Source: Deltaproteobacteria bacterium (GTDB lineage: Bacteria > Myxococcota_A > UBA9160 > UBA6930). Taken from it: a DNA stretch of 47,257 bases. Below the pieces are notes generated by a model. That model was not told the DNA's origin, searched no databases, and worked only from the letters and a program-made list of their open reading frames with translations. This document shows positions 1,262 through 33,295 of the stretch, in pieces. A program made the translations under genes and the position numbers. The stretch spans positions 1 through 47,257 of the forward strand of contig JAJDAR010000298.1 of the NCBI GenBank assembly GCA_029261775.1. Direction: 5' to 3'. Within the stretch, counting starts at the first letter, position 1. Each line of letters begins with the position of its first letter.

Positions 1262-1296
1262 CAGTTGACAAAGGGGTCGGGTCTCTCGGTCAACTG
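1262..1296. repeat. Palindromic intergenic element type A, copy 1
   Basis: CAGTTGAC-N19-GTCAACTG; reverse complement matches AGTTGACCGAGAGNCCCGACCCCTTYGTCAAC shared with copies at 1429-1465 and 16253-16284. Confidence 0.85.
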
Positions 1297-1312
1297 AAGT
1301 TGACCGAGAAAG

Positions 1313-1350
1313 AACTTGAGAAAAGTGCCGGGCCATTTTCTTGAGTTGTT
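1313..1350. repeat. Palindromic intergenic element type B, copy 1
   Basis: AACTTGAGAAAAGTGCCGGGCCATTTTCTTGAGTT imperfect inverted repeat. Confidence 0.75.
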
Positions 1351-1381
1351 GTCGGCTGGCTGAGGGTGGGTGACTGCGTCG

Positions 1382-1420
1382 CAACTCAAGAGAAAGGCCG
1401 GGCCTGCTTCTTGAGTTGTT
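1382..1420. repeat. Palindromic intergenic element type B, copy 2
   Basis: CAACTCAAGAGAAAGGCCGGGCCTGCTTCTTGAGTTG imperfect inverted repeat. Confidence 0.75.
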
Positions 1421-1428
1421 GGTCTACT

Positions 1429-1465
1429 GAAGTTGACGAAGGGGTCGGGGCTCTCGGTCAACTTC
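1429..1465. repeat. Palindromic intergenic element type A, copy 2 (overlaps stop codon of 1458..1826 gene)
   Basis: GAAGTTGAC-N19-GTCAACTTC; 31/32 identical to copy at 16253-16284 in reverse orientation. Confidence 0.85.
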
Positions 1466-1826
1466 TCTTGCGATCGCGAGCGGCTTGGGTGGTGAGGAAC
1501 GCCGACCAGGCGGTGCAGAGGAGCAGGCCGCCGGCCTCGCGCGGCGCCTCATCGGTGCTGGCAAGCATGCGGAAGGAGCTGAAGGCCTCCGGGCGGCTCC
1601 CGACCAGGCTGGGCAACCACACCAGTGCCAGGCCCGCGAAGGCGAGCAGTGCCGCGGCGTTCACACCGAGCGGGACGTGGCCGCGAGAGGCGAGCAGCGA
1701 GAGCACGGAGGCCGTGCCGTAGATCGCCGTCCAAAGGGCGGGGTCCGGGTCGTTCCACTGCACCGCCACCGAGAGTGCGAACACACCCGCCATCGCCAGC
1801 GAGAGCCAGCGAGCCCCGCGCCCCAT
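1458..1826 (-). CDS. TMEM220-like small integral membrane protein
   Basis: VQWNDPDPALWTAIYG motif plus four hydrophobic segments typical of transmembrane family 220. Confidence 0.7.
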   Translation of the reverse strand: MGRGARWLSLAMAGVFALSVAVQWNDPDPALWTAIYGTASVLSLLASRGHVPLGVNAAALLAFAGLALVWLPSLVGSRPEAFSSFRMLASTDEAPREAGGLLLCTAWSAFLTTQAARDRKRS

Positions 1827-15472: not shown

Positions 15473-16258
15473 TTGGACGAGCGGTTGATCCGTCCCGGCG
15501 GGCCCAGGCTGCGCCCGATCGCGGACCCCACCGAGCCGGTCTACCACCGGCGCATCCGCCTGGTCTCCAGCGCGAACCGGGTCGTCGGCGACGTCGCCGA
15601 CGGGCCCCACCACTTCCGCGTGGTACTCGGTCACGACGGCACGCAGGTGACTTCGATCCACGGCGAAGCGGTGCGCCACCCCTGGACCACCTGCCCGGCC
15701 GCGGTCGGGGCACTCGACGCGCTCCTCGGAACACCTCTCGACGAGAGCAGCACGGCGGTGGGACGGCACGCCGATGCGACCCACCAGTGCACCCACCTGT
15801 TCGACCTGGCGGGGTTGGCCGTGGCCCAGGCAGCCCGCGGCGGTTCGGGCCGCGACTACCACTGCATCGTGCGGCAGGACTCCGCCGGCGACACCCTGGC
15901 GCAGTGCCTTCGAGACGGTCAGGTTGTGCTCGACTGGCGGATCCGCGACGGCGTGATCCTCGGACCGGGCCCCTGCGCGGAGGTCCCCCTGCAGCGGCGC
16001 TTCATCCAATGGGCGGGCGAGCACCTGTCGATGGAGCAGGCCGAGGCGGCGATCGTCCTGCGGCGCGCGTGGTTCGTCTCGCCGGTTCGCTTCATCGACG
16101 TCGAGCAGTGGGAGCGCGCCTCCGATCTCGGCAACGGCCCGGTGTGCTTCACCTTCCAGCCCGGCCGCGCCCAGACCGCCCTGCGGGTTCCCGGCTCCTA
16201 CCGCGACGTTGGAGGCGACGCCGGCGACGACCCCGAGTCCCTTCTCGAGCCGAGTTGA
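15473..16258 (+). CDS. DUF2889 family protein
   Basis: TTG start; VYHRRIRLVSSANRVVGDVADGPHHFRVVLGHDGTQVTSIHGEAVRHPWTTCPAAVGALDALLGTPL..HQCTHLFDLAGLA. Confidence 0.75.
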   Translation: MDERLIRPGGPRLRPIADPTEPVYHRRIRLVSSANRVVGDVADGPHHFRVVLGHDGTQVTSIHGEAVRHPWTTCPAAVGALDALLGTPLDESSTAVGRHADATHQCTHLFDLAGLAVAQAARGGSGRDYHCIVRQDSAGDTLAQCLRDGQVVLDWRIRDGVILGPGPCAEVPLQRRFIQWAGEHLSMEQAEAAIVLRRAWFVSPVRFIDVEQWERASDLGNGPVCFTFQPGRAQTALRVPGSYRDVGGDAGDDPESLLEPS

Positions 16259-16284
16259 CCGAGAGGCCCGACCCCTTCGTCAAC
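16253..16284. repeat. Palindromic intergenic element type A, copy 3 (contains stop codon of 15473..16258)
   Basis: AGTTGACCGAGAGGCCCGACCCCTTCGTCAAC; stop TGA at 16256-16258 lies in GTTGAC. Confidence 0.85.
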
Positions 16285-16320
16285 AACTTGAGAAAAAGGC
16301 CCGGCCCTTTCGTTGAGTCG
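16285..16320. repeat. Palindromic intergenic element type B, copy 3
   Basis: AACTTGAGAAAAAGGCCCGGCCCTTTCGTTGAGTCG abutting type A copy 3 and the next stop codon (16321). Confidence 0.8.
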
Positions 16321-17496
16321 TCAGGGGGTGAGGAGGGATTGGAGGTTGGTGCTCATGATGCGCTGCTGGTCGGCGGGGGAGAAGGGCTCAAGCTCGGCGA
16401 GGAAGTCGAGCGGGTTGGCGAGCCCTTCGGGGTGCGGATAGTCCGAGCCGAACAGGATCTGGCTCGTGCCGATCAGCTCCGCGAGCTCGCCGAGGGGCTC
16501 CTCGTAGAAGGGCGCCACCGAGACGTGCCGACGGAAGGTCTCGACCGGGTGCTCCTTGAAGTCCTTGGGCATCTGACCGTAGACGTGCTCGAAGGTGGCG
16601 AGCAGACCCTTCACCCACTTCGAGCCGTTCTCGACGCTCGCGACGCGCACACCGGGAAAGCGGTCGAAGACGCCGTGGCAGACGAGTGCAGCCATCGAGT
16701 CGGAGATCGCGCGCCCTGCCAGGCCCAGGCAGGCCTTGAAGGGATCGGGCTTGAAGGGCAGGAACTCGCTGCCACCCTGCCACATCTGCGAGAAGCGGTC
16801 GTAGCCGGAATCGGACGCGTGCATGCAGACGAAGATCCCGGCCTCCTGGACGCGGGCCCAGAACGGATCGAATTCCGCGAAGCCGAAGGAGCGCGAGCCG
16901 CGGTAGCCGGGTACCGGTGCCGGGCGCAGGCCCACGGTACGCGCGCCCCGTTCGAGCGCCCACTCGAGCTCGGCGATGGCCATGTCGACGTCCATCAACG
17001 TCACGAACGGAACCGTGAAGAGCCGATCCTCGGTGTGGAAGCCCCAGCGCTCGTCCAACCACTGGTTGAGCGAGTGCAGGACGGCCCCCATCAGCTCGTG
17101 GTCGTAGTGCATGCGCTCTTCGACGACGCTCGCGAGCGTGGGGAAGACGAGCGTCGCGTGGACACCCTGCTCGTCCATCAGCTTCAGCCGGTCCTCGCCG
17201 TTGCGGTAGGCCTCGGGGCAGCGGATCGGCTGGCCCATCATCTCGCGGAACGACAGGCCCTCGGTGTTCTTCGCGCGGTACCAGAGCTCGTGGGCACCCG
17301 GCGGCGCGATCACCTCGAAGGTGGGGTTCGGAATGTAATCCGAGATCACCCCGCCGATGGCGAGCTTGCGACGTCCGTCGACGTCGACGTACTGGAACTC
17401 GCGCTTCCACTTCTTCGGGAGGTGCGCGGTCATCGCGTCCTCGGTCTCGTAGAGGTGGTTGTCCGCGTCGTAGACCGGGTAGCCGAGGTCGGTCAT
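16321..17496 (-). CDS. Amidohydrolase family protein (PF04909-type)
   Basis: YPVYDADNHLYETEDAM..VFVCMHAS-type core (GIFVCMHASDSGYDRFSQMW), ILFGSDYPHPEGLANP. Confidence 0.9.
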   Translation of the reverse strand: MTDLGYPVYDADNHLYETEDAMTAHLPKKWKREFQYVDVDGRRKLAIGGVISDYIPNPTFEVIAPPGAHELWYRAKNTEGLSFREMMGQPIRCPEAYRNGEDRLKLMDEQGVHATLVFPTLASVVEERMHYDHELMGAVLHSLNQWLDERWGFHTEDRLFTVPFVTLMDVDMAIAELEWALERGARTVGLRPAPVPGYRGSRSFGFAEFDPFWARVQEAGIFVCMHASDSGYDRFSQMWQGGSEFLPFKPDPFKACLGLAGRAISDSMAALVCHGVFDRFPGVRVASVENGSKWVKGLLATFEHVYGQMPKDFKEHPVETFRRHVSVAPFYEEPLGELAELIGTSQILFGSDYPHPEGLANPLDFLAELEPFSPADQQRIMSTNLQSLLTP

Positions 17497-32769: not shown

Positions 32770-32824
32770 GGCGCTCTCCGGCTCCGGTCCTTCGGCTGCG
32801 AGCGACCCGAGGTCGGGCCCGTGG

Positions 32825-33295
32825 CTAGCGGCGGCTCGTCTTTCGCGCCGTCTTCTTGCGTCCCGTGGTCTTGCGTGCCGTCTTCTTGCGTCCCGTGGTC
32901 TTGCGTGCCGTCTTCTTGCGAGCGGTCTTCTTGCGTGCCGTGGTCTTGCGTGCGGCCTTCTTGCGTGACGTCGTCTTGCGCCCGGTCTTCTTCTTCGCCG
33001 CGGCCTTGCGGGTGGTCTTCTTGCCGGCGGGCTTGGGCTCGACGGCCTTCTCCAGCCGGCGGATCAGCTTGGCCGCGTCGCTCCGGACCTGGCGCTCCAG
33101 GCGCGCCCAGCGTGCTTCGCGCTCGGCGCGGGCCTGCTCGACCTGCTTCTGCAGCGACTTCAAGTTGTTGCGGAGGTCGCGAACCAGGGTGCGTGCGTTC
33201 GAGGGCAGCTGGCGCTCCAGGTTGCGCAGCGTGTCTTCCAGGCCTCGGTTGGCTCGCGAGGTCTTCTTGCGGGTCGCGCGTTGGCGGGCTGCCAT
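32825..33295 (-). CDS. Histone H1-like protein with helical N-terminus and K/R/T-rich repeat tail
   Basis: LEDTLRNLERQLPSNARTLVRDLRNNLKSLQKQVEQARAEREARWARLERQVRSDAAKLIRRLEKAV + KKTARKTTGRKKTARKTTGR.. Confidence 0.85.
   Translation of the reverse strand: MAARQRATRKKTSRANRGLEDTLRNLERQLPSNARTLVRDLRNNLKSLQKQVEQARAEREARWARLERQVRSDAAKLIRRLEKAVEPKPAGKKTTRKAAAKKKTGRKTTSRKKAARKTTARKKTARKKTARKTTGRKKTARKTTGRKKTARKTSRR
32851..32910. repeat. Perfect 30-bp tandem duplication within H1-like tail
   Basis: TCTTCTTGCGTCCCGTGGTCTTGCGTGCCG x2, identical; flanked by degenerate copies. Confidence 0.95.

Follow-up and report, generated by a model that had tools for sequence, protein, structure and literature searches.

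Bacterial intergenic DNA often contains REP-like repeats. In the stretch of 47,257 nucleotides analysed here, referred to as the window, two unrelated genes end with the same serine codon and TGA stop inside two copies of one short palindrome, element A, and the question arises whether the element brought these stops, landed on them, or is kept at gene ends for the benefit of the host. The features concerned are:

1263-1295, plus strand: element A1, which begins 4 nt past the stop of a gene at 249-1259
1310-1349, plus strand: element B1
1380-1419, plus strand: element B2
1431-1463, plus strand: element A2, whose right foot contains the TGA with which the TMEM220 gene ends
1458-1826, minus strand: TMEM220 gene (PF15071), terminating AGA AGT TGA within A2
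15473-16258, plus strand: DUF2889 gene (PF11136), terminating CCG AGT TGA within A3
16253-16285, minus strand: element A3, a palindrome with its core at 16254-16284, whose right foot GTTGAC contains the TGA that terminates the DUF2889 gene
16282-16321, plus strand: element B3, which abuts A3 and reaches the end of the amidohydrolase gene; it is a longer palindrome and belongs to a related family that is more degenerate
16321-17496, minus strand: Amidohydro_2 gene (PF04909), with its 3' end at B3

The 62-nt gap between the convergent DUF2889 and Amidohydro_2 genes consists wholly of A3 and B3. Here the original prediction was correct to the base, as it was for the 31/32 identity of A3 with a distant copy, which lies inverted at 1432-1463, and for the terminal codons of the DUF2889 gene at 16258 and the TMEM220 gene at 1458. 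With up to 3 mismatches, the window contains the first 19 bases of A three times, against 0.00 expected from shuffles. Between A1 and B1, at 1297-1310, lies a truncated A foot, AAGTTGACCGAGA, probably the remnant of a further copy. Elsewhere in the window, positions 32806-33045 hold a run of 15-nt repeats, mostly within a minus-strand ORF (32825-33295), where they would encode a repetitive tail.

The 31-nt core of A, GTTGACGAAGGGGTCGGGNCTCTCGGTCAAC, is present in 101 copies (≤3 mismatches) in the present genome (G000, an assembly of 578 contigs), while the reversed control gave none. At ≤5 mismatches, 111 copies in 54 clusters were found on the contigs fetched. Multi-copy clusters make up 31 of these 54, and in 24 of the 31 all copies share a single orientation; head-to-tail arrays with short spacers are thus common, and they reach 7 copies. 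A search of 60 related genomes, among them four congeners, gave no copy, and the exact consensus had no match in the GTDB species collection, from which the present genome was possibly left out. The family is apparently species-specific. A is a REP/TIR-type miniature element, probably a small mobile repeat dispersed by a transposase gene elsewhere in the same genome. The candidate gene is:

C541:992-1786: Y1/HUH transposase gene of the RAYT/TIRYT type

Two A copies flank this gene on one side and three inverted A copies on the other. A corresponds to the terminal inverted repeat (TIR) of this gene. The protein has HVH at 60 and YVHRNP at 119, the HuH motif and the class 2 YxxxNP motif, and matches Y1_Tnp (PF01797) above the cut-off. 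Its C-terminus gives a weak Bac_DnaA_C match (E 0.00019; 21.9 bits, where the cut-off is 31.5), and its score of 66 bits against the NCBIfam REP-associated tyrosine transposase is under the 80-bit cut-off. No solved structure with sequence similarity was found. Three other Y1_Tnp genes of the present genome, on contigs C576, C296 and C404 (loci L094, L095 and L096), have no A or B flanks. The gene on C576 bears a short inverted pair, AGAGCGGGGACGTTG.

Relatives of the transposase are found in the set of related genomes, many of them flanked by their own inverted repeats, mostly with a GGGG-rich core. One of them, in a sister species, G004, is 53-54% identical and occupies the equivalent locus, where it converges on the aminotransferase gene that also neighbours the C541 transposase. 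Its repeat is a different one, GTTAAGNNAGGGGCCGGTTCCATTTGTTAAGTT, with 40 dispersed copies in G004, a count that may be an underestimate because the assemblies break at this repeat: at loci L316-L345 many contigs terminate within ~50 nt of it. Since both transposase and repeat differ at one and the same locus, the two have diverged together, most simply by descent. The flanks of the aminotransferase gene fetched from G001, G002 and G003 contain no transposase match. In G001 the same aminotransferase locus (L198, ~820; G001:C189:51627-51655) has a hairpin, CTGACGAAGGGGTCTGCCCCCATCGTCAG, which holds the TGA of the gene; it is a single copy in that genome and may be the remnant of an element. Family B, of which the fetched contigs contain 28 copies, is similar to the G004 repeat. 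It probably represents an older family whose transposase would no longer survive in the present assembly.

The tally of placement relative to genes covered the window and ~370 kb of contig sequence retrieved around elements. For gene calling, a hexamer model was used whose training set consisted of ORFs with the codon-position G+C of real genes. As the contigs were picked for carrying elements, the absolute rates are not genome averages. Gaps carrying A or B were convergent in 35 cases, tandem in 19 and divergent in 3. The original prediction that all copies sit at 3'-3' junctions therefore holds in the window and fails across the genome, where tandem gaps are also used. Element-free gaps on the same contigs numbered 34 convergent, 218 tandem and 70 divergent, and contributed 1222, 13904 and 11090 intergenic bases, respectively; weighted by bases, fewer than 3 of the 57 occupied gaps would be expected to be convergent, where 35 were observed. 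Convergent and divergent gaps are about equally numerous in any genome, and divergent gaps are the longer here, so 35 against 3 is no sampling effect. With a median of 16 nt, element-free convergent gaps are so short that insertion into one is necessarily near a stop. Among the A clusters, 36 of 54 lie within 9 nt of a gene 3' end. Copies that first appeared to be in genes were rejected as such, the supposed genes being upstream extensions of ORF starts, pieces at contig edges, or short doubtful ORFs. No copy on the fetched contigs was a clear insertion in a gene body.

The tally against stop codons was equally non-random. Nineteen genes terminate exactly on the TGA of the A foot GTTGAC (offset -5), whereas GTTGA ends occur in 4 of 298 element-free genes. 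The serine-stop ending proposed for the element is found at both window genes and does not extend to all others: the last codon is AGT (Ser) in 11 of the 19, CGT (Arg) in 7 and TGT (Cys) in 1. Three more genes have a TAG stop, the G of which coincides with the first base of A, two further genes at A end with GTTGACTGA, and many A copies sit 0-9 nt past a different stop. The first in-frame TGA is used by 19 of the 23 genes that run into A, where one third would be expected of a frame-blind process (p = 2e-6). At B the stop is TAA, used by 7 of the 8 genes overlapping a B foot at their end, against 4 of 298 element-free genes (p = 6e-11). In G004, six genes end on a GTTAA belonging to its repeat, which lies in the matched copy in four cases and in an adjacent extra foot in two, and one further gene ends on a TAG inside the repeat; this amounts to an independent replicate of the docking pattern.

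The most telling pattern to emerge beyond the original prediction is an asymmetry of orientation. Of 40 contacts, defined by a cluster edge within 9 nt of a gene 3' end, 34 present the gene with the 5' foot of the G-rich strand of A (p = 8e-6). In tandem gaps with a single A orientation, 12 were the same and 2 opposite. A2 and A3, the two elements that supply a stop in the window, each have the less frequent orientation. Since either foot gives a stop, the feet do not explain the asymmetry. Together, placement, stops and orientation strongly support the preference for insertion or retention at gene ends that the first inspection had suggested.

In four congeners, the orthologues of genes ended by A or B mostly terminate at a position only a few residues away, beyond it in some cases and short of it in others, and their usual ending is C-TGA or C-TAG; there was no systematic truncation of the A- or B-ended proteins relative to them. 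Among element-free orthologues, 4 of ~43 end in GTTGA, a weak excess (p = 0.056). The statement that the element provides the stop is thus literally true of the present sequence, yet the proteins have been neither systematically shortened nor lengthened, which makes landing on or beside an existing stop an equally good reading. For A the two readings are equally good; for B the background rarity of TAA ends favours donation of the stop by the element.

A and B are very probably miniature mobile palindromes, A being the scattered TIR of the TIRYT-type transposase on C541, concentrated at gene 3' ends with the TGA or TAA of a foot used as stop. The transposase would copy A through single-stranded DNA, and copies would persist chiefly where genes stay intact, either within tight convergent gaps or right at the stop codon. 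A gene entering a foot in one frame would stop at once (GTTGA, AACTTAA), and in the other two frames would read through. We think that the coincidence with stop codons arises from this filter for gene intactness, combined with a similarity of the foot to a stop-containing target or the inclusion of such a target in it. Points against this explanation are that a purely selective filter leaves the orientation bias unaccounted for, that the transposase falls short of the NCBIfam cut-off for REP transposases, and that the contigs of the tally were picked for their elements.

It is quite possible that selection did all of the work. Insertion would then be random, the element would bring the stop, and the copies now seen would be survivors in gaps or in last codons that had gained an immediate in-frame stop. 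The frame bias of 19 in 23, the TAA stops of B-ended genes, the tightness of convergent gaps and the freedom of gene bodies from clear copies are all as such a process predicts, but the 34:6 orientation is left unexplained and several A-ended proteins exceed all their orthologues in length, that at L084 by 4 residues.

A possible though somewhat doubtful alternative puts the specificity into insertion. A would insert in a strand-specific manner, beside or across a short stop-containing target resembling TTGA, comparable to the insertion of IS200/IS605 elements on the 3' side of a tetranucleotide. The TGA would predate the element, and genes would be spared by the mechanism itself. The strong orientation of the foot toward the gene end is what this predicts, and the proteins without net shortening and the weak excess of GTTGA ends in element-free orthologues agree with it. 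Against it, GTTGA ends are scarce in the present genome, TAA ends are rarer still relative to their use at B, there is no common tetranucleotide outside the palindrome, and many copies lie just past a different stop. A more specific form of this thought, that a TIRYT-type transposase targets stop codons or the adjacent DNA in an oriented fashion, so that docking reflects mechanism beyond selection and the foot sequence and stop type co-vary between sister species (TGA here, TAA or TAG in G004), is tentative and rather unlikely.

That the elements are regulatory parts of the host, bidirectional terminators or protectors of mRNA 3' ends under selection, is improbable. Their placement at 3' ends and in convergent gaps would suit such a role, and they can form hairpins (-13.0 kcal/mol for A on its usual sense strand, -8.6 on the other strand, and -23.6 for the B consensus). 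However, neither flank of A shows a T-run in the flank composition of its copies, and a terminator scan found nothing at 16253-16320; an intrinsic terminator, and with it the bidirectional one first proposed for this junction, is thus unsupported. Nor would host parts be expected to be missing from 60 related genomes including four congeners, to be lacking from the majority of convergent gaps among the neighbouring genes of the sample, or to form head-to-tail arrays of up to 7. It is possible that the elements protect 3' ends or affect mRNA ends or translation termination, as reported for REPs elsewhere; on the mobile-palindrome explanation any such later effect would be secondary. Chance or an assembly artefact, for which the fragmentation of the genome into 578 contigs and the ending of some congener contigs at such repeats might be cited, is dismissed by the zero expectation in shuffles, the zero matches to the reversed pattern and the distinct gene neighbourhoods at the 54 clusters.

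Among known systems, the closest is the TIRtron, a Y1/HUH gene flanked by inverted repeats, with a TIRYT transposase and dispersed TIR families (Di Nocera et al., 2013; PMC3733652). TIRYTs have been tentatively equated with TnpA_Y1 subclass 2.1 (Quentin et al., 2018; PMC6006769), and group 2.1.2 includes DnaA_C-like C-termini (PMC6006769). The present system shares with these a Y1/HUH gene with long inverted repeats and the dispersal of solo copies, dimers and clusters. The C-terminal helix-turn-helix of TIRYTs, of DnaA_C, HTH_23 or HTH_28 type, may be represented here by the Bac_DnaA_C match below the cut-off. It differs in the G-rich core of A, GGGGTCGG, which has one mismatch to GGGGWSAS; as that motif is described for some TIRs and not all, this is no exclusion. 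Oriented docking on stop codons is not described for TIR families in the excerpted text of PMC3733652 and PMC6006769.

The GTAG REPs of REPtrons, whose transposases are RAYTs, are likewise dispersed short palindromes favouring convergent and tandem gaps near 3' ends. Their convergent placement and closeness to 3' ends have been published, and their termini often supply the TAG stop of flanking ORFs (PMC3733652). A, in contrast, lacks an unpaired GTAG, GTGG or CGTC tag, the first base outside it being only A or T, and here the stop, TGA or TAA, lies in the palindrome's own foot. With IS200/IS605 elements the system has in common the single-strand HUH/Y1 chemistry and hairpin ends (PMC6006769; PMC8266576), and the orientation of A would be accounted for by an oriented insertion on the 3' side of a short target. 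The C541 transposase, however, is of class 2 YxxxNP type (YVHRNP) and has one gene copy, which is not like a self-spreading IS.

The phenomenon is known already in outline for related repeats, and the present genome is a clear new example. What is added is a large, apparently species-specific family of a known type, in which docking on TGA and TAA stop codons has been quantified and is strongly oriented. How REP-like repeats spread without breaking genes is unsettled, and this genome is a clean case, with one identifiable transposase, more than 100 near-identical copies and a strong orientation toward gene ends, to which the sister species adds the same transposase locus with a different repeat. 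Whether the stop codon is the target of such elements or the place where they survive becomes directly testable here.
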